A stretch of DNA of 64,000 nucleotides, taken from contig CM049321.1 in assembly GCA_026874595.1 (NCBI GenBank), forward strand, positions 23,739,979-23,803,978, read 5' to 3'. The translations under genes were made by a program, and so were the position numbers. The notes beneath the pieces are model-generated. The model saw nothing but the letters and a program-made list of their open reading frames with translations. It did no database searches and was not told the origin of the DNA. Below, one piece after another: positions 4,284 through 44,000 of the stretch. The number at the start of each line of letters is the position of its first letter. Position 1 is the stretch's first letter. Source of the DNA: Sipunculus nudus (Eukaryota; Annelida; Sipuncula; Golfingiida; Sipunculidae).

Positions 4284-7200
4284 TTATTCATCACCCAAAA
4301 ATTCTCCTGTTAATTCACAAATAAAACTACGTTGACTTGAACAGCGAGTGTTGGTCCAGAAGTGATTCGGAGTTGTCGTAATCACAGCACAGTTAAACGT
4401 GTCGAATTTAGCCGGTGCCAGGAACCAATTAGCGTAACGTACACGTTTGCCAGTAGATCCCCAGACCCATGTTTTCTGGTTTGTTTCGAACGTTGCCGAA
4501 ATCCAATACGATAGGATATTGGGGTTCTTTGAGTTTTCTGAAATCATAAATTTTAAGACAAGATCCCGCAAACTTGATTTCTCTAAGTAATTTGATCCTT
4601 TTAACATCACTTCACTCGACCGATGCCCACACTGCTTATTATATGAAATTACGTATCCATGCTTTATATTAAATAAATGAATATGAGCAGGTTAACATAT
4701 TCAACCTACCTATCATTCTTTCAACGTGGTCTTGCTCCAGCTCTGATTCTATGGTGAGAAGGTATGCGTTATAACTTTTGAAACAAAGCTCATTTGCTGC
4801 TCTGTAAGATAAATCACTCTGAAAAAAAGCGTTATCACAAATATTATTTAATCTCTTTTAAGTAATTTGAAAATGTTCAAATAATTCTTATGTATGCTCA
4901 GGCATAATAAAGACTTAATTGGAACACAGCCATACTGTGAGCTGGCTTTATTTTTACTTTTGATCCAAATACACGTGTTTTTCAACTTACTAATTATATA
5001 TATTTAGAATTTAAAAGGTATACTTGACATGTGACTTTATTTTTATTTAAAAAAAGATACATGAGCATTTATATGGAATCATGTACGTTGTTCTGAGTTT
5101 TCCCACGTGTCTTACCGGGCGGATTTTGTAACAAGATGTGACTGGTGTGGTGCTTCCAGCTGAAAAGTCTTTGAACATATCCCCGTATCCTCGAGGACAG
5201 CCTGTTAGGAGAGAACACTAGCGCGTAGAAAGTCATATGAATATTTCACAAAGGAAAATCAAGATAAAGTAAAATTCTAAACTACATACGTAATCTAGTG
5301 TTCAGTAAGTTTTCTATTACATAATAATATCTGAGAATTCACACACATGATTTCCTTTTTCGGGACAAAAAGTTAAGGTTGGAGCGAATTTAACTTCAAC
5401 AAAATGTTTAAAATATGAATCAATTTTAAATTTGTTAATTTATAAATATATCGATGTTACGTGTAGGACAGGGTTTAAATAGTTTTTGGCGTTTACGAAC
5501 AGTGTTTGATGTCAATATTCACACAGTGTCATTTCAGTATTTCAGCCATATCTAAACTGTGAGTAAAATATCAAAATATCTCAATCCTAATCACAATTGA
5601 GGCAATATTATACATGATAAAATATGTATAAAGAACTAACCTTGACTAAATGCAGTGCATTTCCTGTATATTAGAGAAAATGGCAGTGCAAACTGGTAGA
5701 GCAAGCAACGATTATTGACTGTCCGGCTGTACATGCAAGGTGGGTTGGAATTAGATCTACATAGGTCACGGCATTCACTGTGAAGTGTCGAGTTCCCTTG
5801 GATGCGTTTCAGTTCAATTTGGGGGATTTCTTGGTCGAGTGATGTTAAAGTACCTCCTGCAACTAAAATACAATATCGAAGTTATTCACATTTATGAAAA
5901 TTATGAGAATAATAAATTAATAAAAATTTAGAAAACTGATCCATACATTAAAACGAATCCATACATTAGGTTTAGTTTTTCATTTTATATGTGCCAGATA
6001 AAGGGCAGTTACATTATGATTATGTTGAATTTAATGGTCTGATTACAGTTGGCTAAACACTTAAACTATTCAAATCAAGGGTTATCTGGGAAATTTATTT
6101 ATTTATTTATTTATCTATTCCAAATATTTATACAGGGTTGCTAGTTCACTTTTAATAACTGTTCTATAACATTCATTATACAAAAAATATGCATAAATGA
6201 TAAAACAAACATTGTACTTATGATATGGTGGACGCACAAATTATACAAGTACATGAATATGATATATTACATGTCAGACAATAATCATGGCATATATGTC
6301 ATAATGCACAAACTCCTTCCCAAGTAAAACTAAAAAATAAGTGAATTTTACAATCACGTCAAAAATGTGTGTCAAAAATGTGACTTCAAAGGATAAGTGA
6401 AAGAATAAAACACAGCATAATCAAAAATATACTCTGCATATCGCGGTTCAAAAAGGGGATCGTTTGAATAGTAAAAAGGGAATAATATTCAAAATTTCTC
6501 TAATCATTCAAAGCTAAGACATTAAAGGGAACGATTTTGTACGAATGACTGAATAAATACTTTATTTAGATGTAAAGATAACAAGACTGTGCCCTGAAAA
6601 TAGGAAACGAATTAAAGCTCCTCCTTACAATCATACAATAAGAGTAAAAATTAATGCTAAAAAAAATGTACTCTATTCTAGCAATATGCATTACTTTCAA
6701 TTGGACCTTACCCTTTAAGATGTACACTGCCTTAAAGCGATGCACCACTTTAAACCATTTTAAAATATTTTAAGCTTGTGTATGAACTAGTCTCATCTTA
6801 TGGTACTTCATATCCTCACTATTCTGGGCTTTGTTAAGAATAACAAACTTTGTTACCAAACAAGACCTTTTTTCAGTTATTTAACGATATTATTCAGCCT
6901 TGATGTATATTATGGTGTCACTCTCATTCCTCCACTGCCGAATTATAGACACACATGTATTCCTAACAATATTATAATAACAGTCTGATTTAAAATAAAA
7001 AAAAAACTCAATACAAGGTTAAATATCTGCGATCTTTACTTGAAATCAGTGTGCTGTAGAAAGATTTTAAATTACATTAGATTACATTTTAAATTACAAA
7101 GAATTACATAAGGTGTACCAAAATTGATACATGCATCTATAATATATTTTCCGGATCGATTCACTCTGTCTTGTAACACGCTTTCCAAATAAAACGAATA

Positions 7201-10200
7201 GAATATATGCGAAATTAAGATATCGTGGTCTTAATTTTTTGGACTGGTTCATTTGATGTACCAAAAATTCCTATCTTACCTCGTGGATCATACCTTATGT
7301 CCTTTTGGTTTAACATACACTTTTTTCAGTATGATGAAAAGTGACAAACATGCAACGGGTCTGTATTTGAATAAAGGAGCTTGTTTTCTCATCCGTTACC
7401 AGATTTTGTTCTTCAGGCACTGCTGTCTAATGGCAGAGAGACATTACTTTTCCACAGCAGGGGACAGATCTGTCAATGCCCCACTTTGATCGGACGGAAG
7501 TGAAGCGGGAGTTTCTTAAATGTGGATCGAGAATATTTTATGGACACTTAAGAGTAGACTGACTTTTTTTTATTTTATTCACGAGCTTTCGTAGCTTCGG
7601 GCTCTTTTGTGTCATATAGAGACTGAAAGGAAAGTGGCTGTTTTATATAATGATGGTGAATAACAATACAATGTAAAATCTACATTATGACTGACGGTAG
7701 TCCGACTCCACATCTGTTAAACATTTTCTCCATAGCCCCGCCTCGGATATGCACGTTTTTGGTTTTGATATGTCTAGCAATAGCTAAGTATGTCTAAGAG
7801 GTTATTTTTTATATATTCCTTGTTCCTATGATATTGCATGGTACTTTTATGCCAAGCCAAAATTTTTAGCGCAATCTCTCAGTCTATACAAGACCATTCA
7901 TCATAAACGTGTAGTTTACTGTTTAACCACTAGAAAACACCTAAAACTAATATCATATATTGTTGGAAACACGACACGATTAAAATGTGGCATAAATTAT
8001 CTATAAAAAACCTTAAAGCCTCCTAAAACGAAAAACAATCTGATCTACCACTCCACGTGATTTTTTTTTTCAAATTCAAACCATTCCGGTGTGAATGAAG
8101 AAAGCCAATATTACAGCAGCATTCAGTCCTAAACAAGCATCAGAGTATTATGTCTTTTACTGGTCACATATTCAAAAGATTATAAACTGACACGATCAAT
8201 TTCGGTTGAGATTATGCTTCACACAAAATCAAATCATGTTTTAATACCACAGGGCATAATGGCAAGAGTGTACCAGAGCAAGACAAACTATTAAAATTTA
8301 ATTTTATCCTCAAGGCTTTGTTACACTAAGTAATTGACTCTCATTGATCTTGGTTCATGTCAGCTTACCGTAGAAAGCCCGTCGACAGCCCAGTCAAACG
8401 CAAGAACTGTTAACATGTTATATGGATAATGGGAAATACTTGTAACTGAGTAAACAGACACGAAAAAATATAATTTCATTATGAATATGAAATGTGGCAA
8501 TTGAATAGACAGAAATAGCAAATCAAATATCATTTCACTATCTTTAATATAACAATGGTGGTGGTACTAAATTGTTATCACAAAAGTCCTCTTTGGCAGG
8601 GCCTTGGTTATGCATCGTTTTTATCTTGAGGCAGTGGACACGATGCAAGGTGCGCCCCCAGGGATTTTCCGACCATTCCACATAAATCTATTGGAATTTG
8701 AAACTAGGGCTAGGGAAAGGGCTAGGAGCAATTACACTATTGTATATACTATTGTATCAAAAAGTTTAACTCGGTACACATTCAAACTCTCATCCGGGGT
8801 TAACCTGTCAATCTGTTCTATCACAAGAACGGAAAAATGATACTAACCAATTTGCTAGGTACAGTGTGTTGTTCCAATGACACTTCATATCGCCTACATT
8901 TGTGAAACCTCTCAACAGAATTTTTCTTGATTTACAACTTATACTAGACTCGGAGGTAATTAAAAAAAAACTCTGTATCCAGATCTGCAAGTACTCTCGT
9001 AGTAGCAGTCTCGGTATTACAAAATGTTTAATAAAAAGTAAAACGTTTAACATCCACTGGCACAAATATAGCTGGCGTACATTACCACGACGTTTACTTA
9101 ACGAAATCATATTTATCCATTTTAATAAACTCAACAAAGGGCACTGTGATTTTCAAAATGTAAGGGTACGTACATGCATATACCATGTCAACTATGTTCA
9201 TAAACTATAACCATCGGCAAAAAAGCCCCATAATAAGTCTGAGAATTAAATGACATATGCAATACATTATTCAAAGATTCAAAGACAAAAATTTACATGT
9301 TAACCAATATTATTTTATGACAACACACACGGGAGATGCTTGCCAAATTTGTGGACTGAAAGGTTATATAATTAACACACTGAAAGCAAATATAGGAAGT
9401 GATATAAAATATAATTTTAATGCAGAAGTAAGGGGTAACTCGGGATGCTTGTTATATTGCGCACTGTAGACATAGAGACCTGCCGTTTTACTAGGAGTAC
9501 AATATTAATATTGATGAGACGTCATTCAATGAGCATAGGTGCATATTCCCGCCACTAACATCACCGTGTTGTGAGACCACCTCTTCAGTTTACTAACGTT
9601 ATTTAACCTTCACTATCCACAAGGACATTGACTCCCTGTTTAATATATGACCAAGAACTAAGCTAATGTTAAATCTGCTTTCGTAAACAATTATAGGCTC
9701 ACTCATGTAAATCTATTATAAGAAATCCACTACCATAATACTTGTCAGTGCTTCATTTACGGCCAATAGCCTTATGCATACTAGTTAAATTTTGGGTCAG
9801 AGTGCAGTTACCAAAAATAGCAAGTATAGATATAATGAATTTACACCTAGTTTGATTGTGGGTAACTTAGGAATAACCAAATAGGAATATACCGAAGTGG
9901 AGCATAATCTTACAAGCTCCCAATTTCAAATCCAACACATTTAACCATTCGTTGTAGTTATACATCGTTAATCAATCATATATATTCAGCAACTTTCTGC
10001 TTACTTTCCACATGCACAAAAGGAAGGAACCGTATTCACGCTTTACCTGTGATAAAATAATATTCTAACATTGCTTGACATCGACAGGACCCTCAGCATA
10101 TACATTTCTGCACTAAGTCCTTACAATTATTCACTCTTTCCGTGATAAAAAAAGGAATCGCTTCTGGCATATATTAATTTCTGACATCTCGTTCCAGTTT

Positions 10201-12059
10201 TGTTTAACATCTATTGGGAGTGTAAGCAAATATGATAAATAAATGCATGAGATCATATACGCCTTAAGATTGGTAGTTGGGACTTATATTCGTGATGCAA
10301 ATTTTAACAGGATCGGGGATTTGTTGATATCGCTGAGCCCCGGACTAAGGCGAGAGGTCATAACCTGTGACATTTATCTTCCGGACGTGTAACAGATACG
10401 TCATAATCCTCGCTCCTGGGTCTGTGATATAATGATGTGGCCTGAATTCAAAATGAGTATGTGGCTTCACTGACAGCTCGGCACAACAGAAACTCGGTGA
10501 ATTCCGTTCTTTCTAACACAAAAAAGCCTCCTCTAGTAAATCCGCAGGCATTAACTCCATTTAACTAACTTTAAGATGTTGATCATCTATATTTTAATTT
10601 TCACTAATATTCATGCATCCATTTCTTATATAACGTAAACAAATCACCAGATTCATTAAGGCTTTTCAGGGTAAAAAAGTGACAGAATGCAGACCTGCAT
10701 TAATGTTCAAGGAAGAACGCGAAGAGCATGTAAGATTTTGCCATCATCCGTGCTCCTGGACGCGTGATGGGACGCGTGACATTGAAAATTAAGCTTTTAT
10801 AATATGAGGTATTGAAAGTAGAGGCACAATGGTACCTCCATTAGTGCACTGGTTAAGCAGACTTTGGAATTAGATGCAAACTAGTATTATTCTTAAAGTC
10901 TATTGTCGTTGAATACAAAAGTTCTGTTATCAAGGTTATTATGATTAGACTGTCATTTTTTTTCAGTCTGTTTAAGCTCTAGATCAATATATTGGGTATG
11001 GGCCTTCGGTAACTTTACTTATTAATAGATCACTGCGCTGTTATTGTTTGTAAGTGCATTAAACTGTCATGTCATCTGTTTCATTGTGTCCTGGTAAAGC
11101 TCCTTTTATTGTGGAGTCTTCGCCTAGGACAGCCAAAAGTTGTCTACCTGAACTGCTGTTCTCCTTTCATAGCGTCAACATCTATTCATTGAACAGGCTA
11201 TTTAGTTTTTCCATGTTTTGTCTTTTATGTTTTGATTATAGAATGAATCAAATTAAAAATAATAAGGTATATGGAACTTAGTGTTTTTCATGACAACAAT
11301 ATTTAAATAAGGGCATCGGACAAAAATCATCAAAGAAACTACATTTGACAATGTTCAATATTGCGAAAAAAAACATATATATATATTTACATAGCTCTAT
11401 CTGATTTAATGCTTTCTTTATTGATAAAGTTACCTAATCGCTGTGGGTTACGTTTTTTGTCTATCGTTACATTTCTTTCCTTCAGAAGACACGGTACATG
11501 GCCCTTCAGGGATAGCTCAACACAGAAAACCACTGTTTCATTAGTAAAAATACCTTTAATCCGTTTTTATTTTGTCTATCGTTACATTTCTTTCCTACAG
11601 AAGACACGGTACATGGCTTTTCAGAGATAGCTCAACACACAAAACCACTCAGTTTTATTAGTAAAAATACTTTTAATCCGTTCTTATATGATTTATACGA
11701 CATAAACGTTGAGGTTTACGTTCAAGGTGAATACATTCACAGGTAATCGTATCGAATATCTGATAATAGGCTCGGTATGAACATATTCCAGTTCAGCTAG
11801 GACACAGAGCGAGTATCTAATACTTATAAAAGGAATTCGGTTCACGTCTGATCGCAATGTTCTCTAAAACCGCGATGTGTACAACAGTGTGCCTTACATC
11901 ATTTTAAAGGTTATTATGCCCGCAGTGACATGGGCGATATTATGTAATTAAGTAATATTTAAATGTGTAAGTGTAATTTTATCTCCCAAAGGTAATGCGT
12001 AACTGACCTGCGAGAATTGTCAGACAGATCGCTAGGATGATGCACATAGTTGCCTTCAT
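4284..12059 (-). CDS. Secreted C-type lectin A with N-terminal cysteine-rich module (5 exons)
   Basis: Exons, in minus-strand order: 12008-12059, 5641-5856, 5116-5201, 4710-4818 and 4284-4537 (stop). All junctions have GT/AG and matching phases, giving 717 nt and 238 residues. Exon 1 encodes a signal peptide (MKATMCIILAICLTILA), so the product is probably secreted. Exon 2 encodes a module with ELKRI, ECRDLC, PPC and later cysteines. Exons 3-5 encode a CTLD with all six expected cysteines (CPRGYG, SCYK, ELCFKS, FNCAV, NTRC, FICEL), a YWISATF strand and a WVWG motif. The Ca2+/sugar motifs EPN or QPD and WND are absent, so canonical calcium-dependent sugar binding is doubtful. A ~6.1-kb first intron holds repeat block A. 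Family C-type lectin is secure; ligand and the role of the module are unknown. Start ATG is the only one preceding the signal peptide. Confidence 0.85.
8312..11115. repeat. Duplicated block A (partner 18213-22153)
   Basis: From CAAGGCTTTGTTA to about TTATTGTGGAG the sequence matches 18213-22153 in the same orientation and order, roughly 85% identical by eye where I aligned it. It lies inside intron 1 of lectin A. No open frame is conserved between the copies (indels are not multiples of three), so it looks non-coding. I see no terminal inverted or direct repeats, so segmental duplication fits better than a simple transposon. Confidence 0.85.
11457..11687. repeat. 114-bp tandem duplication
   Basis: TTTGTCTATCGTTACATTTC and the following ~100 bases (AGAAGACACGGTACATGG, ATAGCTCAACACA, TTAGTAAAAATAC) occur twice, starting at 11457 and 11571. 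It lies in intron 1 of lectin A, between block A and the signal-peptide exon. Confidence 0.9.
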
Positions 12060-13148
12060 ATTTCGGATTTGCTGAGTTTGGATCTTCGAAAATTGTCGGG
12101 GGCAGAGATCTGGTGTGACTTATTCAGTAACGTTTGAATACAGGTTCGGTGCAACAGTGAGACCGTACACTTGGTTTATCATTGACAGGTAGCACCCATT
12201 GCTATCAATACAATGCCAATGAATAAAAAAGTAGTTTAATATATTTGTAGTCGCCTTTGTTTTCTGACATCAGTCAATAAAAAAATGCTTTGGTGTCCAT
12301 GCTTCACAGACTTGCTCTTTTACTGTGTCAATTGTTTTCCTCAATACAAAAAAAACTATCAAATCATGACTTTACTGATCAGCTTTGTCATTCAACAAAT
12401 ATCTATTTGTGTCTGGCAGTCACATTTTCTCATTTTCTTTCATTGTCCCATTGTGCTTTTCCTTTAACTTTATCTGATGACTGGTGTGATCAAAGGCATC
12501 TTTAAATATTTCTGCATTGCTTTGACTAGGTTTGTAGAAGAATGGTGGATTTTAAAAAGCGAATGACAGAGGTGATAGTCGAAGAGACTAGATTGTTGAT
12601 TATGGGTATTGTCTGAAAGCTGTTTACGAAATATCCCTATGCTAAAAGAATGGGAAAGTCTAAGATGTCCAGACAAGTGCTGCGGCGAAGGTTAAGGCGA
12701 AGACATCAGATTCAGTGATGTTTGAAGCCGTAAACTGCTCGTGATGTTACGAGATATATAATTATATGTACATATATATACTGTCCAATCATAAATTCTC
12801 AATATTGTTACAACCCCTGTATTCAGAATTATTGGCACCTTTGGTGGCCCAAATGCTAATGGAGTCCAGCAAGTGCGACCACAAAGCACTGTAAGAATAT
12901 TTGTCACGAGTCAGTTGCTGAGCCAACGGCACATGACAAAGGTTGGCATTGGTCTCTAATAAAACCTATCAATGTTAATTACACAATTGTGTGTTTTTCT
13001 GTTGCGTAAAATGCGGCGTCCGAGTTCACATTGCTTCATCCTTATTGGTCAAATGTTCTTTTTAATCCTAAATATGCTTATATTCCTATATACGGTATTT
13101 ACCATAGTATTTAGCTATACTTGAACTTACCTGTATTATAGTCATAAG

Positions 13149-13223
<75 letters not shown>

Positions 13224-14801
13224 AAATAGCGTACTAAACAGAAAACTAGAAAAAAGCACACAAAGGGGGCAGGTATCAGTACTATTTTATTCATATGCGG
13301 AATGATAAAATATCATGGTGACAATAAGGCCAGAAGATGCGGGGAATTGAACAGTAATAAACATATATGAATAGCTCTTATATAGATCTGGAGTTGTTAT
13401 GCCACACTTATATGGCAAAGTAACCATAGATTTTTTAAAGAATATATTCACTGTTTTGTAGTCACCTATTCGAGGTATCCCATGCCTACAACAAGGAGCA
13501 TCTGTAGAAACATGAGAAGTTACACATGGACATCTTCTCCGGCATGGAGATTATTTTTTTTCTTTGCAGTAAGTAATTCAACTCCTCCAGGAGTTTATTT
13601 CCTAGACCATCAATACAATAAGCAACCAGAAAGGAAGCCCTTTCATTTGTATGTTTAGCTTGAACGGTGTAAGTAAGGTAGTGATTAATGATAATAAACC
13701 GTATATGATTATTATGCGGCATTTTGCATATAAATGACTGTGAGCTTGTGGACAAATATTTACCAACACTTTATTGAAGGTCTTATCCACATTTCAAACA
13801 AATTTAAATTTCTTAAAGACACTGTAAATGTTAACCCCTTAGTTGGACCTACATTTTAATGGTATAGACTTAAATATTGGCGTCAACGTGCAGGGTGGAC
13901 ACGAACGTACGGTATAAACATGAGTACGATGCTTAGTTAGAGTTAGGGAAAGCAAAGTTAAAAGGAAATGATGTATGTTTGTGTGGTGATCTGGCAACCT
14001 TACGACAATATTTGTGTTTCTTATTGCAACATCGATCGTTGTATTTACTGAAGCTCAGATGGGGAAACTTGTCATAATTTATTATTTCCTTTGTGATTGT
14101 TCCGTATTTCCCTACAAATAATGTTTGCTTCATTAAATATAAGTTAAAGAAAAGTTAAGTTAAATAAAGTATACCTAGACAATAAAAGCAAGCAATTGTC
14201 TCTTATTTACATGCAAGTAAAAGCTTCATTTGTAATGTTCATGCCATGCATCATAATATGGTGTAACATATCCTACTTTTACTATTCAAATGATTGTCAG
14301 AACAAACGCGAAACGGGACATTTGATACATTATGGAATATATGATTAATAAAACATTCACTTAATTGGTTGAATCTTCACCAAAGTTTACTGCGGTTATT
14401 TGCATTCGGACTTCGAAGGTATTAGGTGGGTATTTAGGTTTATCGACGTTTCCTTGTCCACCAGGGCACCAGAGCGAAAAGCATTAGGTGAAAAATGCAC
14501 CCTAGCTTCCAGAATACAAGGTCATGTGTATGGTTCGTGAAACGTAAGAGTTTTAAGGAAGGGACAGCCTGACTAATGAAATGTGTCCTTTATATCGTAA
14601 CTGGCGAGCTTTGTTTATAACTTATTTATACCCAAGGATACGGTTAATTTCATGGCAAGAAAGATTATCGTTCGGGTCCCTTTATGAAGCAAATGACCCT
14701 TGTCTCTAGCCCTTCATGCACATGTACCAATACTTCTCTATCAAAGAGCGATATAAAAGTAGGCTTTGCCAAATAGCCCACAGTTCGGTCGGGGCAACTG
14801 G
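12060..14801. other. Intergenic spacer between lectins A and B
   Basis: This is the 5' flank of lectin A and the 3' flank of lectin B. It contains a long (TA)n tract (13154-13221). An open frame on the minus strand at 13486-13755 has no recognised family. I could not identify a convincing core promoter for lectin A by eye. Confidence 0.5.
13154..13221. repeat. (TA)n microsatellite
   Basis: About 68 bases of uninterrupted alternating A and T. Confidence 0.95.
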
Positions 14802-17253
14802 TTAAGGCAAATACCTAAAGTTAAATGTCTTTTCACAGATGGCTTGTTGTGTCGCCTCACAATAGTCATCGTCCCACTGGTAATTTGAATAAAGGCGTAA
14901 AGTCATGCAATTCTGATTCCCGTCGGCGTTATTCGGTTCAAACGGGCCCCAGGCCTGGAACATCATGCCGACTACTTGCCCATTTGTATTCCATTTCCAT
15001 AGCCCTTCATTGTCAGCATCAGAAGCGGATGTCCAAAAAGTTCCTAAAATATTGTGAAAAACAATTGAGGGTATAATTTGCAATTTTATCTAACGGGAGT
15101 CCTCGAGCCCGACTCTGACAATAGATTGCTAAGTCTTTGTAAGGTTCATTGTTTTCAAACAGTTTTGTCTCTATCATTCACGGAAAATAGAATTGCGCAA
15201 GTTTATATGGATGAAGACATTTCTAATTTGACTACAAAGCTAAACAAGTAATGACATTCCTAAACACTATGCCCAAACCACTTTCGCCTCCATGCAGATA
15301 AAGTTTAATGGCAAGCGTATTTACGCAATTTTGTGTGGTTTCCTCATAACCAGTATGCTCATAATGTTCCAGGAACACCTAAGGGTAGTTCTATTTTAAT
15401 TATAGTTCCTGATGACATTCTGTTAGTAAAATAAATCAATGTTACATTAATCATAAGATAACTGAATGAGTAAAAGAAGTATGCTATAGACTGTGTTTTG
15501 TATATAATTTTTCAACATGACATTAGTCTTGATACATGAATGTGAAATGGGTATATCTAAATTAATTATGCGATATTCAAATGTTGGGTTACAAGTAAGT
15601 ACCACTGAGTTACCTGTCACATTCATTTCCTTGATTACCCTCCAGATATGCACCTGTTCCTTTTCAGTTTCGATACTAATCAGTGAAGCCCCCTCATTGT
15701 CACATTTTTCCCCAGCTCCAAACCAAGTGTGGTAGCCTTGGAGAAGTTTGTAACAACTGATGCGGATGTTAAATGTTGCACTTGTTTTGAAGCAGTGTTT
15801 GAATTCCTCTTCATCTTTGAAAAGGAGGTATATTTGTCAGCTATTTATTTTGTTGCATGGAGGTGATTTAAATTTAAATAATAATAATAACAATAATGAT
15901 TAAATAGAAAAGAAATCATGAAAAGATAAAAGCCTATCAAGTAATCCAGCTTATACTATTTTAGTCTGATCTTTTTTCCACCAAGGCATATCAGATTAAA
16001 AGAAAATGAAAACAACAATAACGGTAACATTGTTGACAAATGAATCGATGCCGAATTGAAGGAAAACCAGCAAACCAGTGTTTTAGTGTTGTTTTAAATT
16101 TTTAAAATATTTTTCTCTTGTAATATAAAATAATGATAACATCAGGTATTGGAAAACATTTGATTTGGTAAAACTCTTATTAATAAATATAACATATTTC
16201 CAACATAACAGTTGTTTTTTTTCTTTCGTTGCAATATTTATGAAAATTACGCACAAGTGTAATGCATTACGTTGTAAATAAGCATCTGGCATCAGTTAAA
16301 ATGCATGGCATATGATGCCTTAACATTAGTTTAAGACTGAAGTTTTATTTTCAGATAAAAGGACCAACAGCTTTACCTTGTCGTGATCTGGAGAGAAGCC
16401 TATTGGCAAATCCGTCAGATTTTACTGCTGAAACAGTAGACACTGTCACCTCATGTTTTATTTTATATTATAGAAAAGAACATGGTGATCGAGATTCAAA
16501 ATACATTCGGAAATTTGACAGTAAATTTGTATGGATATTGTTTTGTCTGCAGTAAAACTAAATCATTGATATTTTTCTGTATATAAATTTATTTTATTTT
16601 ATTCAACTGTAAGACTTTCGATATTTTAAACATAGACCCGGTACAAAATGATAAAGAAATTGCTGTTGTATTACAACTAGACAAGTAGACACTATAACGT
16701 GAATGAGATACATACCTACGCAAATCTTTCCATACAAAAAAACTCCTGTACTTAATAATAATAAAACAGTACTTTTGTCCATAAAAAAATCCATAATCTT
16801 TCGTAATCTTATCCATATTGTGGAGGCAACCAAGAGTATAATCGTAGTATATTATATGTGTAGACGTTTCTTTGTGTGTCATTATAAAGGGAAAACATGA
16901 ATTTGATCAGGATATTTTAATGTAATCTACGGTAACCCCTGAAACGTCGGGCCATTTCATGTAAGAATTCGAAATTTCTAGCCAGTACTCTATTGGGGAT
17001 TTGTTCATGATTTGCTTACTTTTACCAGAAGATGGGCACTCTTTGTAAGATGGTGAAAGTAGCGGAGCTGTCCTGTATAGGGTGCATAGATTCTTTGACG
17101 CAGAGCCTTTAAGACACGGAGGGTGTTTATGTCTGCTACACAGGTCATGGCATTCAGTCTGAGCTATCGCACTCTTGTGGATCCGTTTGAGCTCGGTTTG
17201 TGGGTTTTCTGGTTTAAGTGCCTCCATTGCTGAGTGCTGCGTGCTTCCTTTCA
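14802..17253 (-). CDS. C-type lectin B with cysteine-rich module (5' exon not found)
   Basis: Exons in minus-strand order: 17026-17253, 15614-15814 and 14802-15043 (stop). Each starts with two bases of a codon and each internal donor leaves one, so phases agree throughout. The first carries the same module as lectin A (ELKRIH, ECHDLC, PPC, NLC, KEC). The other two form a CTLD with six cysteines (KHCF, SCYK, EKCD, QNCM, DDYC, ICEK), the EPN sugar-binding triplet and WDD in place of WND, so a calcium-dependent, mannose-type ligand is plausible from family knowledge. The CTLD is split once, where lectin A is split twice. An upstream exon ending in phase 1, presumably a signal peptide, is required. 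I searched 22-27.5 kb by eye without finding it. It may be far upstream, diverged or lost. Confidence 0.78.
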
Positions 17254-17986: not shown

Positions 17987-18426
17987 TTGTATATACATAT
18001 ATATACATAAAAAAATTTGTTTTTTTACAGCTATTACGTTATTATATTCAGTCTTTTCAGGATAAGCTGGTTTCATGTTTTAATGTTTCGATTGCTGTGG
18101 TGTACTATTTTTTTATTTACCGGTTGTAAACCGGAAACAGAGCGATTTGCCCACTTGATACAACACTCCATTCTCTGTTCCTAACTTCTACATTGACTCC
18201 TACATTGATCTTAAACCCAAGGCTTTGTTACCCTAGGTAATTGACTCCCATTGATCTTGGTTCATGTCAGCATAAGGTAGAAAGCCCGTGGACAGCCCAT
18301 TCAAAGGCAAGAACTGTTAACATGGTATATGCACAATGGGAAATACTTGTAACTGAGTAAACAGACAAGGCAAAAATATACTTTCACTATGAATATGAAA
18401 TGTGGCAATTGAATAGACAGAAATAA

Positions 18427-19218
18427 CTATAACTATATTTATTTCGTATAGCGCCATTTTTACACGTATGTTTCAAATGCGCTTTACAACTAAAAACATC
18501 ATACTTAAAAATAGAACCACATATTTACTAAATTATCAATGACACTAAAAAGTTAAAATAGTTATATCGGTAAAAATATAAAAATATTTAGGTATAGTAT
18601 TTTCTAAAAAGGTAAGTTTTAACGTCCTTCTTAAATTGTTCAATACGTGATACTGCTTTCAGTTCTTCTGGAATGCTATTCCATAGCTCTGGACCACAAA
18701 CACTGAAAGATCGCGAAGCAAAAGTTTTCCGTTTTGTAGGGGGTACCACGAGCCTTCTTACACCCCTGTCAGATCTAAGCCCTAATCTGCCTGGTTTTTG
18801 TACTTCTATCAATTTCTTAAGGTAATCTGGTGCAGTTCCTTCTAAGCATTTGAAGACAACGGTCAAGACTTTATGTTCTATGCGAGCACGAATAGGTAAC
18901 AAGTGTAATGCCTTACGAGCTTCCGTTGCACTTTCGTATTTTTCCTTGTTTAATACTAATTTTGCTGCAATGTTTTGCACACGTTGTAGCTTTTTAATTG
19001 ATCTTTCTGGTAGACCGAAAAAAATTCCATTGCAATAGTCAAGGTGAGACATGACTAGTCCACGAACTAATGTGTGGGTTGCTTCTGTCGTGAGTATGGA
19101 TCTGATCTGCTTAATTCTATGAATATTATGCATTGCAGTTCTACATTTCAATGAAATGTGATGTTTGAAATTTAGCTGCTTGTCCAGCCAAGCTCCCAAG
19201 TATTTAATATTATCTGAA
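18427..19218 (-). mobile_element. 5'-truncated CR1/L2-like LINE (reverse transcriptase C-terminus)
   Basis: An open frame of about 210 codons (stop at 18588) reads as the C-terminal part of a non-LTR reverse transcriptase: NIKYLGAWLD near its start, then SHLDYCNGIFFGLP, KKLQRVQNIAAKLV, HLLPIRARIEHK and a final GPELWNSIPEELK motif. The 3' end carries a (TATAGT)-type tail, usual for this LINE group. Comparison with block A gives the exact empty site: sequence before 18427 and after 19218 is continuous there (GACAGAAATA then GCAAATC). The copy is dead on arrival, lacking the endonuclease and most of the polymerase. The frame has no internal stop, suggesting fairly recent insertion. Confidence 0.9.
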
Positions 19219-20715
19219 AGCAAATCAAATATCCTTTCACTATCTTTACTATAACAATGGTGGTGGTACTAAATGTTATCACAAAAGTCCTCTTTGGCAG
19301 GTCCTCGGAAATGCATCTTTTTTTTATCTTGAAGCAGTCGACACGATGCAAAGTGCGCCGTCAGTGCATTTCTGACCATTCCACATAAACCTTTAGGAAC
19401 TTGAAATTTTTTCCGGAAATTACTATTACACTTTTGTATATACTATTGTATCAAAGAGGTTAACTCGGTACACAATCAAACTGTCACCCGGCGTTAACAT
19501 GTCGATCTGCTCTATCACAAGAACGGGAAATATGATACTAACAAATTTGCTTGGTACAGTGTGTTGTTCCTATGACACTTCATATCGCTTACATTTGCGA
19601 AACCTCTCAAAAGAATATTTCTTGATTTACAACCTATACTAGACTCGGACGTAATTAAAAAAATCTGTATCAGGATCTGCAAATAGTAGTAGCAGTCTCA
19701 GAATTTAGAAAATGTTTAATCGAAAATAAATAGTTTTACTCCTACTGACACAAACATCACATATCTTTATATAGCCGCGCTGCCGTCATTACCACGACGT
19801 TTCCTTAACGAAACCTTATTTATCCATCATAATAAACTTAACAAAAGGGCACTGTGATTGCGAACTGTAAGGGTACGTATATGCATATACCATGTCAACT
19901 ATGTTTATAGACTATTACCATCGGCAAAAAAGCCTCATAATAAGTCTGAAAACTAAAGGACAAATGCAATATATTTGATTCAAAGACACAAATATACATG
20001 TGAACCAACATTATTTTATGACAAAACACACGAGAGATTACTTGCCAAATGTGTGTACTAAAAGGTAATATAATTGACACACGAATACAGGAAGTGATAT
20101 AAATCGGGATGCTGGTTATATTGCGCACTGTAGACATAGAGGCCTGCAGTATTACTAGGAATACAATATCAAAACTGACGAGACGTCATTCAGTGAGCAT
20201 AGGTGCATATTCCGCCAGATTCGCCACCGTGTTGTGAGACCATCTCTACTGTTTACTAACGTTATATTAATGTACACCGTCCATTAGGACATGGACTCCC
20301 TATTAATATATAACCAGGAACTCTGCTAATGTTAACTCTGCTAATGTATACAATTATGGACTCACACATGTAAATCTTTTATCAGAAACCCCCTACCATA
20401 ATACTCGTCAGTACGTCATTTACAGCCATCAGCCTTATGCATACTTGTTAAATTTTCGGTGAGAGTGCATTACCCAATGGAGCAACTATAGGTATAATGA
20501 TTGGACACCTAGCTTGAATTATGGATTACTTAAGAATAACCAAATAGGAATGTACTGACGTGAAGCATAATCTTACAAGCTCTCAATTTCAAATCAGTGT
20601 ACCAACACACTAATCCACGCGTTATAGTTATATATTGTTAATCAATCATACATGTATATTCAGCGACTTTCTGTTTACTTTCATCATTCACATGAGGAAG
20701 GAACGTATTTTCTTT

Positions 20716-21124
20716 ACGCATAAACGTACGCATTGCATGCAGCATGCTAACTGACCTTTCACTGCACGTGGTATGTTATGTTAGTGCAGAAAAATGTGAG
20801 CGCGTGAAGTGTGCTTCATACATTGGATATAAGTCGGACGTAACCAGTACAGTGAAATCCCTTTAGGGCGGACAGTCACGAGACCGGACGTTATAGCGTG
20901 GTGTCCGCCTCAGACGCTGTCGGACCAAGGGGGTCTGGCTGCGGCCACATTTTGGAGACCGAAGTATGGGACTAAATCATCCATGAAAGCCGGTATTTTC
21001 CCTCAAATATGTGACCTTACATTTATGTTACATGTGAATAAAATTTATTACTACCGATTGTTGTGTTTTATTTTATTATTTTTTTAAATTTTTGAATGAG
21101 GCTTTCAACTGGAACATTATCGTC
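20716..21124. mobile_element. ~410-bp insertion in block B with a CAGTGAAATCCC end
   Basis: Block A reads directly from AAGGAAGGAACCGTATT to CTTTACCTGTGA; block B has about 410 extra bases there. Inside is CAGTGAAATCCCTTTAGGGC followed by GC-rich sequence, resembling one end of the CAGT-type TIR elements found elsewhere in this window. I see no matching opposite end, so it may be a truncated MITE within a composite insert. Confidence 0.6.
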
Positions 21125-23171
21125 TTTACCTGTGAGAAAATAATATTCTATCATTGATTGACATAGACAGGAGCCTCAACATTTTCATTTCTGCACTAAG
21201 TTCTTACAATTATTCACTCTTTCCGTGATAATAAAAGAATCGCTTATAGCATAAAATAATTTCTGACATCTCGTTAAATTTTTGTTTAACATTTTTCGAG
21301 AGTGTGAGCAAATATTATAAATAAATACATGAGTTCATATACGCCTTAAGACTGGTAGTTGGGACTAATTTCCGTGATGCAAATGTCACAGGATCGGGGA
21401 TTGGTTGATATCGCTGAGCCCCCGACCAAGGTGAGAGGTCATAACCTGTGACTGTTATCGTCCGGACGTATAACAGATACGTCATTATCCTCGCTCCTGG
21501 GCCTGTGATAGAATGGTGTGGCCTGAATTCAGAAGGAAAATGTGGCTTCACTGACAGCTCTGTACAACGCCTCCTCTAGTAAATCCGTGGGGATTATCTC
21601 CACTTAACAAACTTTAAGATGTTGATCATCTATATTTAAATTTCATTAATATTCATGCACCCATTACTTACATAGCATAAATATATCACCATATTCATAA
21701 AGGCTTTTCAGGGTTAAAAATTGAAAAAATGCAGACCTGCTTTAATGTTCAGGCAGAACGCGAAGAGTATGTAGGTTTTTGCCATCATCCGTGCTCCTGG
21801 ATGACTGGACGCGTGACTTGGAAAATTGAGTTTTTATAATATGAAGCATTGAGAGTGGAGGCAAAATGGTACCTCCATTAGTGCACTGGTTAAGCAGGCT
21901 TTGAAAATAGATGTAAAGTAGTATTATTCTTAAAGTCTATTGTATTTGGATACAAAAGTTCTGTCATCAAGGTTATTATGATTAGACTGTCATTTTTTTC
22001 AGTCTATTTAAGCTCCAGATCAATATATTGAGTATGGGCCTTCGGTGACTTTATTTATTTATAGATCACTGCGCTGTTATTGTTTGTAAGTGCATTAAAC
22101 TGTCATGTCATCTGTTTCTCTGTGTCCCGGTTAAGCTCCTCTTATTGTGGAGTTACGGCCATCTAGCAACTACATAAAAGAACTGAGTTTTTATATTATG
22201 ATGTTTTTATTAAGATAAAATAAGAACTTGGGTCATGTTTTTTTTAGGTCCCCCGGGTCAAAAGAGCAATACCAGGTGTCAAGTTGACACTTGAATCTGG
22301 TCATTTCCCAAGCCATAGGCACTTGAATTGGGTGAGCGATATTACAAACATCACCGAGTCCATCCCCCTTGTCACCTATCCAACAAGCATTCCCACTATT
22401 TGAATATGATTCATTCCCTTACTTTGACTGCCTATCAGCCTACATTATGCTATAATCACCCCAAAAAGAAGCTTGAAAACAAATTTTCAACCTGCCTACT
22501 TGGTCATCGTCACTCGTGCTCTCATTTACCACAAGGTATGGAAGCTGACATATATACAAAAAGGTATTGCGAAGGGGTCGTCATGAGTGTTAATGAAAAT
22601 TCAAACACCGGGAACCATGGGCAAAATTATGCCGGTGTTTCATAAACACGGGGGTATGGAGTCTTATTAGCACACGAGGGTCAAAGTATAAAGCTGATCC
22701 AGTAATAAAATTTGCTTATTTTGTAAGCAGAATACTCACAAACCACTGCAAACGGAATGAAAGATTGACTTTTTTGAGCTTTGTTAAAATTTATGGTATA
22801 GAATGTATTTAGAATGTGTTATGTAAAACACGTTATATATATTTATCAGGCCCCTGCGCGAGACTCAACCCACCCCGCGGGCTCCGGGGGCCCTCAACAC
22901 GCCCCGCCCTGCGGGCCTGCTTTTTTATGATTTTGCCGGGCGTGGCGGTCCTAATTGTTTTTACTGCAGTGCAGATGCAGGTTAAAGACTGATAAGTGCG
23001 GGGCGAGGCGGGCTGCATAAATTCTAATGAGGGTTCTTGCGGGCTGAAAAGTTGTTTTATCCAGTGCATTTCTCCAATAGTTCCAACTTGAAACAGACTG
23101 TTTTACATAAATCACATTTTTCTTTGTTGAAGTTAGTTTTATATATGTGTCCATTTGTATATAATATGCTC

Positions 23172-27100: not shown

Positions 27101-27859
27101 GTCTAAGCTTAATTTTACCATACAATAGCTGCCTACTGGCAACCCCGCCTGCCCAGGCACAGATGGGCCTATCATAGTTCACTCATACGGCAACTGCACC
27201 AAGGCACTGGGCTTTGAGATCTTTATGTTGAGTTCAGGAGAGGAAAAGCCAATGGATTATAAAACATTTCATTAAATAACTTCAGAGATACTATTTGTCA
27301 TATATATATATATACTAATGATTGACCGCGGAAAAGGAACCCCGTGAAACCCAGAAAAAAAAACGAAAATACAGCCCCTCTGATATGAAAGCAACCCAAG
27401 TAATGGACGTCCGATCAACCAGGAGCAATTAAGAACCATCCGGACCAGCCAGTTGGCTCATCTGATGCAAATGTCATGGCACACACATATTCCCGTCGTT
27501 TGGATTTACCTCAGATGGGTAGATATTCTGTGTTACCTGGTTAACACAGAAGCTCACAAACTGAATAAACATATTAAATATTGACAAATTAGACACAAAT
27601 ATTGATGAGTGGGTTTATAAACTGATTTCACCAACGATTTCAGTTTCACTCCCCTTTACAATTTGATTTCCTGGTCTTTCGGTCCTTCACATCCTTGTAG
27701 TTTTTCTCGGCTCCACTATTTAACTTTACCGTACAAAATATAATTATGTTTCTGCTCTTGTTTTCCTTTAATAATTGTTATCAGATTCATTTTTTTTTTA
27801 TTTACAAGTAAAAAAATCTGAAAATTTAAGTTAAAATATCAGAGTTCTAAGTTGCAATT

Positions 27860-29095
27860 ATTATTTATCCAGAGTGTAGGTCATATCGGGTCATATTATG
27901 GATACACATATATTTTATTATTTTCAAATCACAAATGTTTAAACTGAATTTAAAAGGGAATAATGCTACAACATGGCATCTTCGAGATTATTCGAGGTTA
28001 TTCCATTGGAGTTTTCAGTACATGCTTAATTTTATTCACCGAAATGAAAGATTCAGTAAATTTGATAAAATATAAACATCTTTTCAAATAAAGTATACAC
28101 ACTGTTGGTTGAATGAGAGACTAACAATATCATTGTGCTACAAACTCTCAGCTAAAATTGTATCCGCCAAAACGAAGTTTTTTGCAGATGTTTTTGACCG
28201 GGTTCCGCCGCCGCGCCGCGTTCATTTCCGGAGAACTCCTCTAAGACTACTGGACGGATTTTTCCGAAACTTACACCAGTTATCGGGTCACATGTGAACT
28301 GGTGCCTAACCAATAGGCGTTGACCTCTGTCCTTTCCTCTCTGCCATCGACAGCTTTTTTGATTTTATGACAGGAGGCACCACCTACATGCTAGTTTACG
28401 CTGCAGACATCCAAGCTCATATCTCGGGAACCGTTTGACCGATTGAGACAAAATTTTGCATGTGTATATATCTCACATAGCTCTTTATCATACACAAAAC
28501 TGGTGGCGCCACCTGCAATCATTTTTGCACAGCGTCCGTCTGTTTGTCTGCATAGGGCTAAAATCACTCATATCTCAGTAGTGGTTTGACTTATCTGCCT
28601 AAATTTTTGCGTGTTAATACATCTTGGATAGCTTTCTCGAATTTTTTGGCAGCTTCAGCAATTTTTATGTCAAGTGAGTAAATATATTTCCTGATTTTTT
28701 AAAAAATTGCATTATGTTTGGGCCAATAACTTCAAAACGATACAAAATACGGACCAAATTTTTGGTATGTTCATAGAAAATGTAAGGAAGAATATGCATA
28801 CTAAACATAATCAAAACCAGATCAGTGGTTTTGATATTGGGCAGCCTTGAAGTATAACAATGGCTTTTTTATGGAAAACAGAGGTTTTTCCTTAATATTT
28901 TGATGGAACGAAGTCCTAGTGACTCAATTTTCGGTATGGAAGTAGATTTTGGGTACATCTTACTGTATGCAAGATTTTGACTGCAGGTCCAATGGTTTCA
29001 AAACGTACCCTGTTAACGGACGGACGGCCGGACGGACGACGGACAAAGGACCACCGCTATAGCTCAGATGACTTATAGTCAGCTGAGCTGAAAAC
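27860..29095. repeat. Dispersed repeat, inverse of sequence at 1-1.96 kb
   Basis: 27860-28140 is the reverse complement of 1620-1960, and 28650-28960 is the reverse complement of the 707-bp repeat at the window start (AATATTTTGATGGAACGAAG and flanks). Between them is a segment with the palindrome GGTGGCGCCACC. The block ends with GGACGGACG runs and a hairpin-capable terminus around CTTATAGTCAGCTGAGC (about 29060-29095), an arrangement resembling the minisatellite-cored elements further right. Confidence 0.7.
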
Positions 29096-32950: not shown

Positions 32951-33099
32951 AACAAATTTCACCTGAAGAGTTGTCCAGCGGAACCTTGCAGACAGCTGGG
33001 AAAAAATGTATACATATTTATATTGTGCTGTCCTCATACTGGTTCTGTTATGTCCTAAAGAAACATAAATGAAAGAGGACAATTTTATCTAGTGATTTC

Positions 33100-33545
33100 C
33101 TACGCTTTCGATAATGATCAAGATATATTCCTGTTCCTTATTTGTTTCCATACTGACCAGAGAGGCCCCAACGTGATTACACCGGTTTTTAGCGGTCCAC
33201 CAACTGAGGCGGTAGTCAGGGAATTTATAACAAGACCGTGAATTCTCCTTTGTAGTAATAGTTGAATCCCTCTTGGCAACCTGCAAACCGAAAAAAGGCG
33301 TTTTCAAAGGTGAAGATAAAGACTGACGGGAAATGCGCTGAAGGCTTAGCTTCATTCCAGTGAGGCTTATGGAAAATTGAATTCTATGGGAGCTGAAAGT
33401 AAAACAACTAGGTGGAGAAGACCATGCAGATATCCAGACAATATTCTCCGGTGCGGAACGAGCGCATCCTTTACCAGAAGATAAATAACAGTATGCAGTT
33501 CTATAAATGTAATTACACGGAGGGAGAAGGTAATTAAACTAGAAA
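33100..33545 (-). pseudogene. Lectin relic D: CTLD first half plus degenerate module exon
   Basis: 33100-33280 on the minus strand reads as a CTLD N-terminal exon: acceptor TTTGCAG, then SRSCYKFPDYRLSWW, a second cysteine in NRCNHVGASLVS, and an METNKEQE helix closely matching lectin B. The donor expected after the last base is G|GA instead of G|GT, and a stop follows shortly after. The second CTLD half (EPN/WND region and ICE motif) is absent downstream, where a hAT-like element begins. Upstream, at about 33477-33545, PPC, YRTAYC and SSG before GTAAAGG resemble the end of the module exon. It is most likely a broken paralogue; use of an alternative donor cannot be excluded. Confidence 0.7.
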
Positions 33546-35785: not shown

Positions 35786-36420
35786 AATATAATGTTTGTG
35801 AATGTATAGTATCATACTCTTTGCACTTAATTGACTTCCGATACACATGAATATCATGTTTGTGAATGGATGGTGTTTACTGTACTTGGTGCACTAAATG
35901 AACTTTAAGTACACAAATATCATGTTTTTTTTTAATTTGGTGTATTACTTTACTTGGTGCACTTAATGAACTTTCAGTACAAAAATATTATGTTTGTGAA
36001 GTATGGGGTCATACTGTACTTTGTGCTCTTAATGAACTTTCAGTACACATGAATACCATGTTTATAAATGGATGGTGTTATACTCTACTTGGTGCACTTA
36101 ATGAACTTTTAGAACACAAATATCATGTTTTTAAAATTGGGGGTTTGAATGTACTTGTTGCACTTAATAAACTTTTTAGTACAAAAATATCATGTTTGTG
36201 AAGTATGGGGTCATACTGTACTTTGTGCTCTTAATGGACTTTCAGTACACATGAAAGTCATGTTTATAAATGGATGGTGTTATACTCTACTTGGAGCACT
36301 AAATGAACTTTAAGTACACAAATATCATGTTTGTGAAGTATGGTGTAATACTGTACTTGGTCCACCTAATGGACTTGTAATACACTTGCATATCATGTTT
36401 GTGAATGTATGGTGCCATAC
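35786..36420. repeat. Minisatellite (~70-80-bp units) with ~202-bp higher-order period
   Basis: About eight diverged units, each with a form of AATATCATGTTTGTGAA, a TACTGTACTTGGTGCAC core and TTAATGAACTTTCAGTACAC. Near-identical three-unit stretches recur 202 bp apart (GTATGGGGTCATACTGTACT at 36001 and 36203), showing that amplification copied multi-unit blocks. Confidence 0.85.
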
Positions 36421-38193: not shown

Positions 38194-38231
<38 letters not shown>

Positions 38232-38316: not shown

Positions 38317-38322
<6 letters not shown>

Positions 38323-38724: not shown

Positions 38725-41132
38725 TTAGTCCTGCTCCATTTCAGTTTCACATGACTGTGGCTCAGTCCGTCTAATTTCATTGTCCACAAACAGCTCGTAG
38801 TTCTTCAGTAAAAACTTGTACCTTTGGGTTGTAGGCATGGAATATGGCTCTCCCCAGACTGCTGTTTGTAGGAATCCTAAGGCCATACAATACCCGTCAG
38901 GATATGCCAGGTCAAACGTGTAGTACACGCTGACAAGCTGCACGATGACCTCCTCAAGACTGGTGGTATCACAGACAATGGTTTCAGTATCCGCCGAAAT
39001 GAAAACTCCAGCAACCTCCCCATTTCTTAAAAAGCATATTACCCTTGGCGAGGATCCAGGAGTCGTTCCAGTTTCTTCTTTAAATCCGAATCTGGTACAT
39101 CCTGAAAGTGGAGAAATTCAAAGTGGCCCATTAGATACATTTGCTTCAAAGTATCAAGAGAGCACTAATCATTATAAATATAGGGATTCATTTGCTAACA
39201 CTACAATCAGTCATTAATGATGTTTTCTTTGATTAAGATAAACGGTTTGAATTATTAACTATTGCCATTTTAAGATTCACATTTACCTTTTGAAGAGAAC
39301 TGACAATACCAAGACCCTAAACTTTATTGAATCATATAAAAAGAATATGAAGGAAATGTTACAACGATAATTTGCTTACTAATAGGATATAATTACCCTT
39401 TTCTCTATTATAGTAAAATTACTTCACAATTATTCATTTTAAAACAATAAGAAAAGCTTATATTTTTTAGATAGTGCCACTTCTTACCTCATAAGCTTCA
39501 AACAAGGGCTCTGACTTGTTCTTTCCCTTGGTTGCTCCCACTCGCTTTTGCAGGAACTGCAGTGCCTTTACCGGGGTAGGAGCCTGCAAAAAATGAAGTT
39601 CGATTGAGCAATTCAATAAAATGTGAAGGATTGTTTAAAATGATATTCAGTAAAGAATCTGAAAACTTCCAAGTGCCATTAGCATATATACTGCGGAATA
39701 CTCCTAATTGTACATGTAACGGAGAACTTTTTCTCTCAAAATAAAGAAACATAATTTATCAACATATTTTTTTGTAAAGCATTTTACAAAAAAATAAATG
39801 TCTCTGCCATGGATGGGTCGTTTTGATCATTCCTGTCTGTGTGTATGTGTGTTTGTAAAACTTTCCCCTTTGCTTTATTACCAAATAAATTATTAAATGT
39901 ATAAACCAGGAGCCAGAAAACCTCCTAGAGATTATTAACCTAGATCCGTAAAACAGGGTTGAGTGAAATCAAATCCTATTTTGTATTTAACGAGTGATCA
40001 AATAAGGAGATTCTAACCTTTGCTTCCTTTTGAAGGAATGTTATTAGATGCTTGCTATTTGTGGTCATCTCTGTCACCTTATCAGGCCCGTAAACAGTGG
40101 TTAGGCTAACGTCATGTACCACCTGCAAAGGAATTTTACACAAATTGTTAATATCTGTTCGTAAAATCCAGAATTTTAAAGTACATATGTATCAGCTGAA
40201 TTCCAATCTGATTTACGTTATTTCTTCGTATACATTACAGTTATATATGATGCAAACCTCTGTTTATTTTAGGATAGAAATTTAACTATCGTTATGAAAA
40301 CACATCTCCAATATATGATTTGAAGATATAAAATAATACACAGCACAAATGAATAATTTATATACATTACTTGTACTGAAAGATGACCAATCATTTAATG
40401 TCATATACAAATTAAACAGAGAAATTTGAAACTCACATTTTTGGCAAGTTGCAAGCACGGGTACACTTCCAGTATAGGGGTCAGCTGACCGCCAGGATGA
40501 GATTTCAGGAGTTCCACTCTGTGTCGCTTCGTAAACTTCATGAGTCGCTGTACTTGTGTTGGGTTTCTTTTGCCAACAGGCTTCCCCCACTCTCGCTGTA
40601 GCGCTGCCATCCTCGGTGCCTTCCTCCTCATCCACCTGCTCCGTGGCCTGTTGGCGAAACACTGGCTGTTGGTTCACCTTCTTGTTGCCTGTCGTCACTG
40701 TCCCACCTTGAGACTTCCTCTTGATGTCCATCCTCATCCTGCGGATTTTGATCGCCAATGACCTGTTGAATGCTAACCTGAAAAAAAACCGTAAAACTTA
40801 AGCCAAAATTTATTTAAATTTGGGGAAAATATAAACCTTATTATGTGCATCCAAAATTACAACTGAATAATTGAAATGTATATCATTTAATCTCTTAGGA
40901 ATAAAAGTTGACTTATAGCTGCCAATAGCTTACACTTACGAGCTCCATATCTGTGTAAAACTTAGATTCATTTAATGCATATTCCTTTATATTTATTTGT
41001 GACATTAGACTAACAACCGCAAAATTAATATCGAGAATAAACGTTTTACATAGGAATACCCACAAATATAATCAAAATACTTGACAATAAGATTTATCTT
41101 GTATGATTCCCTGATGAGAAATCTAATCATGG

Positions 41133-41192
<60 letters not shown>

Positions 41193-41924: not shown

Positions 41925-42240
41925 CACGGAACCTAATATAAACAGATCACGTATGCGTGATGAACACAAATTTTGTAATGGAGATAAAAACAAATGAGAT
42001 TCTGTAACACTAGGCAGCGTGAGATGTCTAGGGGAATGAATAAAGAAGTCGGTGTTTTTTTTTTTTTTACAAATAACTATAATTTATTCTTAAAACAATC
42101 CTAACATTACAATACACTGAATCAATACAATTAAACAGTAAAACAGCGGTTTCACAACAAGTCAATACAATCACATAGAAAAATAATGTGCACAGTACCT
42201 GGATACCAACTCCATCACAACGATAAGTCCTTTAAATGTA
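41925..42240 (+). repeat. Direct-repeat block, right copy (partner 35460-35730)
   Basis: Shares AACAGATCACGTATGCGTGA, CACTAGGCAGC, ATGTCTAGGGGAATGAATAA, CAATACAATTAAACAGTA and TGGATACCA with the left copy, with indels between. The remaining sequence to about 42900 has no partner in the left copy and no recognised gene. Confidence 0.8.
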
Positions 42241-43600: not shown

Positions 43601-43760
43601 CAGTAGAACCCCACAATTACGACCACCTTAAGGACTGACCAAAGTGGTCGTAATTTGGGGGTGGTCGTATTTGTGAAACTCTTAAGTTACCTGGATCGTA
43701 TATTCTGGACCAAGAAAAGTGGTCGCAATTGCAGGGTTGTCGCAAGGCGGGGTTCCACTG
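43601..43760. mobile_element. 160-bp MITE, CAGT termini, TA target duplication
   Basis: Left end CAGTAGAACCCCACAATTAC and right end GCGGGGTTCCACTG are inverted repeats with subterminal GACCAC/GTGGTCG words. TA flanks both sides (43599-43600 and 43761-43762). It is a Tc1/mariner/pogo-type MITE, 33 bp 3' of the lectin relic C exon. Confidence 0.85.
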
Positions 43761-43793
43761 TATAAGGTTCATGTTTAATTTGCTAACGTTTAT

Positions 43794-44000
43794 CAGAAGG
43801 TGGACATCTTCCATCTGACAGAGCTTGTTGGCGTTCTACGCCAAACATGATGCAGATATTCTTGTATGTGTGAATTCGGATACAAATTGGCCGTTCATAT
43901 CTGGTACACAGGTCACCATATGCAGCCGGAGTCAAGATCGCCTTTTTGTGGATGCGTTTCAGCTCAGTATTCGGGGAGTATATCGAGTGCGAATTAGATG
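43794..44000 (-). pseudogene. Lectin relic C: isolated cysteine-rich module exon
   Basis: After an acceptor (GGTAGTAGCAG) the frame reads the lectin module: TELKRIHKKAI, then YGDLC, RPICIRI, KNICIMF and GRCPPS. Its length (207 nt, phase 1 to phase 1) matches a functional module exon. Two changes suggest decay: the first cysteine of ECxDLC is tyrosine, and the donor aligned with lectin B's TCTG|GTAAAAG is TCTG|ATAAACG. No CTLD exon is visible downstream, only a MITE and transposon sequence. It could still be an exon skipped in some transcript. Confidence 0.7.

Follow-up and report, generated by a model that had tools for sequence, protein, structure and literature searches.

A divergent cysteine module, tentatively PAN/apple-like, ahead of C-type lectin domains in Sipunculus nudus

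C-type lectin-like domains (CTLDs) of the long form show a six-cysteine pattern, and calcium-dependent sugar binding in CTLDs goes with an EPN or QPD motif together with WND, motifs that membership of the family does not need. PAN domains of the apple type carry a disulfide between their N- and C-terminal cysteines, a bond not shared by all PAN domains, while Kazal domains have six cysteines bonded C1-C5, C2-C4 and C3-C6 and a core sequence PVC...NxC. C-type lectins that combine a CTLD with a CW/PAN_3 module are described for nematodes in the available part of PMC5297725; in the accessible part of PMC3269628, the PAN module is named in the abbreviation list only. Here we describe a small cysteine-rich module encoded beside CTLD exons in 64,000 nucleotides of the genome of the sipunculan Sipunculus nudus (assembly GCA_026874595.1, contig CM049321.1, positions 23,739,979 to 23,803,978 of the forward strand; this whole stretch is the window). 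We favour, as moderately probable, the reading that it is a divergent five-cysteine PAN/apple-like module attached to C-type lectins, which would be secreted in at least one gene (gene A).

Module exons and candidate lectin genes

The window contains three homologous module exons, all on the minus strand, here called m1, m2 and m3 and assigned to the putative genes A, B and C:

5641..5856, minus strand: m1 of gene A, 216 nucleotides, phase 1-1
17026..17253, minus strand: m2 of gene B, 228 nucleotides, phase 1-1, with an alternative in-phase donor 6 nucleotides further on
43788..44000, minus strand: m3 of gene C, 213 nucleotides, phase 1-1, first cysteine absent

Each exon is open, has AG before it and GT after it, and is in phase 1 at both ends. 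When each module was compared with the 2180 six-frame open reading frames (ORFs) of the window of at least 20 amino acids, the other two ranked first after the self-match, with E-values of 6e-13 (m1 to m2), 6e-11 (m2 to m3) and 5e-4 (m1 to m3); judged by these scores, the three exons are homologous beyond chance. The original prediction of three homologous exons at these places is borne out, as is their single-exon, phase 1-1 character, except that the boundary proposed for m3 at 43794 has no GT and the in-phase donor follows 43788, which gives the exon its 213 nucleotides. A profile built from the three modules found no fourth copy in the window (next match E 0.15), and among 98 stretches of viral contigs that matched a pattern, 0 were confirmed. 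In all three pairs nonsynonymous divergence (dN) is lower than synonymous divergence (dS), with dN/dS values of 0.54/1.25, 0.84/1.25 and 0.60/1.48, the dS values being near saturation; the m1-m2 pair, with a dS of 1.25, is 57% identical in nucleotides. The open frame alone is weaker evidence, since 502 of 20000 random 213-nucleotide frames are also open.

The translation of m1 is GTLTSLDQEIPQIELKRIQGNSTLHSECRDLCRSNSNPPCMYSRTVNNRCLLYQFALPFSLIYRKCTAFSQ, and m2 and m3 comprise 75 and 70 residues. Fourteen columns are invariant in the three-module alignment (P, E, L, K, R, I, D, L, C, P, C, N, C, C), and PxC and NxC, expected to be common to the modules, are unchanged in 3/3. The ECxDLC motif, also predicted for every copy, holds for m1 and m2 but not for m3, which reads AAYGDLC and has lost the first cysteine; m1 and m2 accordingly contain five cysteines and m3 four. 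No cysteine lies N-terminal of the ECxDLC position in any of the three. The spacing in m1 is C-x3-C-x7-C-x9-C-x15-C, and this module carries one N-glycosylation sequon.

Models of genes A, B and C were built from the DNA sequence only. In addition to m1, gene A comprises the following exons:

12008..12059, minus strand: signal-peptide exon of 17 codons and one further base, donor CAG/GTCAGT, phase 1
5116..5201, minus strand: CTLD exon 1 (GCPRGY...SCYK), phase 1 in, 0 out
4710..4818, minus strand: CTLD exon 2, phase 0 in, 1 out, Lectin_C E 0.018 by itself
4284..4537, minus strand: CTLD exon 3 with the stop codon, ORF Lectin_C E 2.1e-8

This model is complete, with four introns, all GT-AG and in phases 1, 1, 0 and 1, and a product of 238 residues. 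The signal exon translates as MKATMCIILAICLTILA, joins m1 in frame and has the top donor score among the listed hydrophobic candidates that run from an ATG to a phase-1 donor. CTLD exon 1 by itself gives no Lectin_C match; the spliced product matches Lectin_C (PF00059) with an E of 2.6e-14 and 54.3 bits (cut-off 22.6) over profile positions 3-106 of 107, and its best PDB match is lymphocyte antigen 75. The product has neither an EPN nor a QPD motif and, once the signal peptide is removed, contains 11 cysteines, six of them in the CTLD part.

The gene B model joins m2 to two further exons, and a third feature is considered here as a possible signal exon:

15614..15814, minus strand: CTLD exon 1, similar to the CTLD exon near 33 kb (E 2e-8)
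14802..15043, minus strand: CTLD exon 2, which carries an EPN motif, a WDD motif and the stop codon, ORF Lectin_C E 1.2e-10
21737..21788, minus strand: weak signal-exon candidate, hydrophobicity 2.59, donor score 6.1, within a repeated stretch

Its introns are in phases 1 and 1, and 223 residues are encoded from the module onwards, the first of which includes an assumed base. Spliced B matches Lectin_C with an E of 1e-15 and 58.8 bits over profile positions 3-107, against the same cut-off of 22.6, and finds mannose receptor 2 as its best PDB match. As modelled, it has 11 cysteines, again with six in the CTLD part. Both products are thus above the Pfam cut-off across nearly the whole profile, and both CTLD parts show the cysteine count of the long form. 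A phase-0 intron within the CTLD is present in modelled A and absent from modelled B (4284-17253). For gene B the search for a signal exon gave nothing convincing: 21788-21737 is the sole candidate with a fair donor between m2 and 33 kb, and its hydrophobicity and donor scores of 2.59/6.1 compare with 3.49/9.5 for the signal exon of gene A.

For gene C, the CTLD exon closest to m3 begins at 33280, 10.5 kb away:

33095..33280 (3' end approximate), minus strand: first-half CTLD exon, perhaps of gene C, start CQEGF, core SCYKF

In the frame predicted from m3, this exon starts with CQEGFNYYYKGEF, which we take to be a typical CTLD start, and then runs into a stop, with the CTLD core SCYKF in another frame. 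A second CTLD half was not found for gene C, as searches with the second-half exons of A and B gave only each other. Upstream of m3, the candidates for a signal exon fall between 51 and 57 kb, for the most part inside tandem arrays. Because m3 is without its first cysteine, the frame of the 33 kb exon is split and the second half was not found, gene C is probably disrupted or truncated, barring an assembly error there or the possibility that the 33 kb exon belongs to another gene.

Taken together, these models support a family of lectin genes that share a phase 1-1 module ahead of the CTLD. The family as first proposed stands in complete form for gene A and, its signal exon not being established, in part for gene B, while gene C is its doubtful member; the join from module to CTLD is uninterrupted in A and B and not in C. 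A position between a CTLD and a signal peptide, or the place expected for one, was claimed for two loci; with a signal exon it was recovered in gene A, and in gene B it would depend on the weak candidate exon. The module exons might still be viewed as chance reading frames or as part of a mobile element, and the region is indeed repeat-rich. We reject this very improbable reading in view of the mutual homology of the three modules, their conserved splice phases, the excess of dS over dN in all three pairs and the in-frame joins to CTLD exons in genes A and B.

A long direct repeat occurs around genes A and B. One copy (8298-11117) falls within the first intron of gene A, and the other (18205-22153), which is interrupted, is upstream of the gene B module; the pieces are 81 to 90% identical. 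The pair was considered as a trace of gene duplication and discarded, since at this identity it looks much younger than the m1-m2 divergence; the copies are read as probable later insertions or exchanges. A 226-residue open frame at 18591-19268 (minus strand), mostly inside the interruption, has no Pfam match at E <=1 and presumably resembles the end of a reverse transcriptase of the long interspersed nuclear element (LINE) type.

Fold and affinities of the module

The original prediction had called the module loosely PAN/apple-like without recognising its family. No Pfam family reaches its cut-off for any module, and NCBIfam likewise gives none above threshold, so that the family is indeed unrecognised by these models; it does not follow that the domain is wholly new, and a very divergent form of the known PAN/apple module is the more likely case. 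Two AlphaFold2 models of low confidence present a strand-helix-strand-strand arrangement in which ELKRI, originally taken for a helix, forms a strand. The PAN/apple lectin SML-2 comes first in both structural-comparison lists, at low Z, and the PAN pattern of C-x3-C with two further core cysteines is seen in m1 and m2 (2/3 modules). A PAN-like fold is the best reading of these models, and the comparison with PAN folds suggested at the outset agrees with it to that extent, with the low Z and the low model confidence counting on the other side.

A considerable body of evidence weighs against a PAN affinity. The mean predicted local distance difference test (pLDDT) values are only 55.3 and 58.5, both models were made on the same three sequences, and the helix of the m2 model is four residues long. 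All structural Z values are below 5, a level at which a common arrangement suffices, and in one list SML-2 is level with CSalpha-beta defensins, whose Z goes up to 3.5, and with an RNA ligase at 3.6. Foldseek gave no match at E <=0.001 for either model and no recognised PAN entry for m2 among the matches listed (best 50 of 54). The proposed Pfam search for PAN returned no significant match: m1 scores 11.7 to 12.0 bits against PAN_3 (cut-off 21.1), no PAN model is listed for m2, m3 or two consensus sequences, and none is listed for spliced A or B, the PAN_3 hit being gone in whole A. Moreover, m3 is devoid of the first helix cysteine, and its gap of 9 between third and fourth cysteines makes the module fit the Kazal protein SPI-1 better than plasminogen, where this gap is 11. 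The N- to C-terminal disulfide of apple domains has no counterpart, as an N-terminal cysteine is missing from 3/3 modules. An hhalign comparison with plasminogen and HGF scored 12.35, close to chance, a value reached by 12/200 column shuffles and by 19/200 with cysteines kept. When sequences were shuffled, the PAN score was reached in 38 (plasminogen), 51 (HGF) and 9 (factor XI apple 1) of 1000 cases, rising to 200, 93 and 13 of 1000 when the cysteines stayed in place.

It is against this background that a Kazal origin has to be weighed. The module would then be a divergent Kazal domain without the fifth cysteine, placing an inhibitor-like loop ahead of the lectin domain, and sequence comparison does lean towards Kazal over PAN. 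The three-module profile ranks the two-domain Kazal inhibitor SPI-1 first in PDB, with an E of 0.0035 over two stretches and a best single i-E of 0.33, followed by ovomucoid (E 0.39); searches with single modules retrieved no PAN entry from PDB, and m1 alone placed SPI-1 second (E 0.64). Domain 2 of SPI-1 has the identical spacing C-x3-C-x7-C-x9-C, and the invariant PxC and NxC occupy what we take to be conserved Kazal positions. The hhalign score of 24.4 was reached by 0/200 shuffles, also with cysteines kept, against references picked because they matched. With OMTKY3, SPINK1 and LDTI, chosen independently of any match, the number of shuffles per 1000 that reached the score was 12, 0 and 4 (46, 2 and 12 with cysteines kept). 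At the level of families, m3 matches Kazal_1 weakly (E 0.17 to 0.18), but its 12.3 bits are below the cut-off of 21, and Kazal_1 is unlisted for m1, m2, the consensus sequences and the spliced proteins. The fifth Kazal cysteine is missing from all three modules, which have five (m1, m2) or four (m3) cysteines instead of six. In m2 and m1, prolines 7 to 8 residues past the fourth cysteine presumably speak against the Kazal helix, ELKRI, the most conserved part, would fall outside the domain, and both AlphaFold2 models show another topology, with no Kazal entry recognised among the matches listed in the structural searches (50 rows and 5 rows). We consider the Kazal interpretation possible but doubtful, and place the PAN-like one above it because we give the sequence scores less weight than the topology of the models, the conservation of the first strand and the fact that a PAN-CTLD architecture is already known; this is a judgement rather than the result of a test. 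A small disulfide domain specific to the lineage and unrelated to both PAN and Kazal would agree with the absence of any family above cut-off and with the uniformly weak fold scores. The three-sequence profile is thin, however, and even established PAN domains show hardly any similarity to one another (plasminogen versus HGF, E 0.007), so that a missing match says little, and we regard such an origin as unlikely. Slightly less credible still is its more specific version, in which an undescribed, exon-shuffled and lectin-tied disulfide domain uses its odd cysteine to form covalent lectin dimers and is hidden from the models by its PAN/Kazal-like spacing.

Returning to the PAN/apple-like reading, the exons, phases, CTLD identity and cysteine counts are as given above, and a structure can be proposed on top of them. 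ELKRI would be the first strand of a reduced PAN core, followed by a helix with C-x3-C and a two-strand hairpin with the third and fourth cysteines, which may pin the helix to the sheet; the fifth cysteine comes afterwards. Since each chain has 11 cysteines, six in the CTLD and five in the module, one module cysteine is left without a partner inside the chain. The simplest use of this cysteine could be to form a bridge to a second chain, so that the resulting dimer has a pair of lectin heads. The EPN motif suggests calcium-dependent binding of mannose-type glycans by the gene B CTLD, while that of gene A, lacking the motif, may have another ligand. Both lectins might act in recognition or immunity.

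Other features of the window

At 48099-50147 and 62664-63881 (both minus strand) lie two long frames encoding C2H2 zinc fingers, with a repeat period of 84 nucleotides. Arrays of tandem repeats, with periods of 323 nucleotides, of about 180 and of about 66, are found at 50801-52465, 53189-54399, 55982-56528 and 35786-36420. Inverted repeat pieces at 1-2137 and 27761-28960, 73 to 85% identical, perhaps represent a dispersed element, and a second inverted repeat (59172-59301 / 59767-59896), with 130-nucleotide arms that are 97% complementary and 465 nucleotides apart, may be a small inverted-repeat element. A 130-residue open frame at 38728-39117 (minus strand) has a sub-threshold DUF4939 match (E 0.08) and is perhaps a retroelement remnant. 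Rfam at gathering thresholds and a tRNA scan of the window gave nothing useful.

Comparison with known lectins and modules

Secreted C-type lectins of invertebrates, as far as they are covered in the available parts of PMC12842671 and PMC10140915, resemble gene A in the signal peptide followed by a CTLD and gene B in the EPN motif; they differ by the extra module that lies here between signal peptide and CTLD. In the accessible text of these two bivalve surveys no PAN domain was found, nor in that of the Aplysia immunome survey (PMC9334734). The portions of the literature consulted report the PAN-CTLD combination for nematodes only, which is no proof of its absence from reports on other animals.

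With Kazal SPI-1 (3qtl) the module shares PxC, NxC and, as regards domain 2 of that protein, the intervals between cysteines one to four. It differs in the absent fifth cysteine, the predicted topology and the lack of any match above cut-off. If the Kazal reading were true, an inhibitor-like loop joined to a lectin would be the more unusual outcome. As a PAN/apple-like module, it would show how far an extracellular module of animal lectins can diverge before domain databases lose sight of it, and it offers the testable proposal that a module with an odd cysteine number before a CTLD may pair two lectin heads.

The PAN/apple modules of plasminogen, HGF, factor XI and SML-2 (PAN_3/CW) are similar to the one described here in the C-x3-C-x7-C spacing, as in plasminogen, the fourth cysteine, the predicted order of strands and the extracellular setting. 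They differ from it in that the module scores below the PAN_3 cut-off, has no N-terminal cysteine and carries one extra C-terminal cysteine. The nematode PAN-CTLD lectins, according to the available part of PMC5297725, show the same combination of domains, with the module here falling below the PAN_3 cut-off. Because this combination has already been reported in nematodes, the architecture of the Sipunculus lectins is probably best rated as a divergent form of an already known one.

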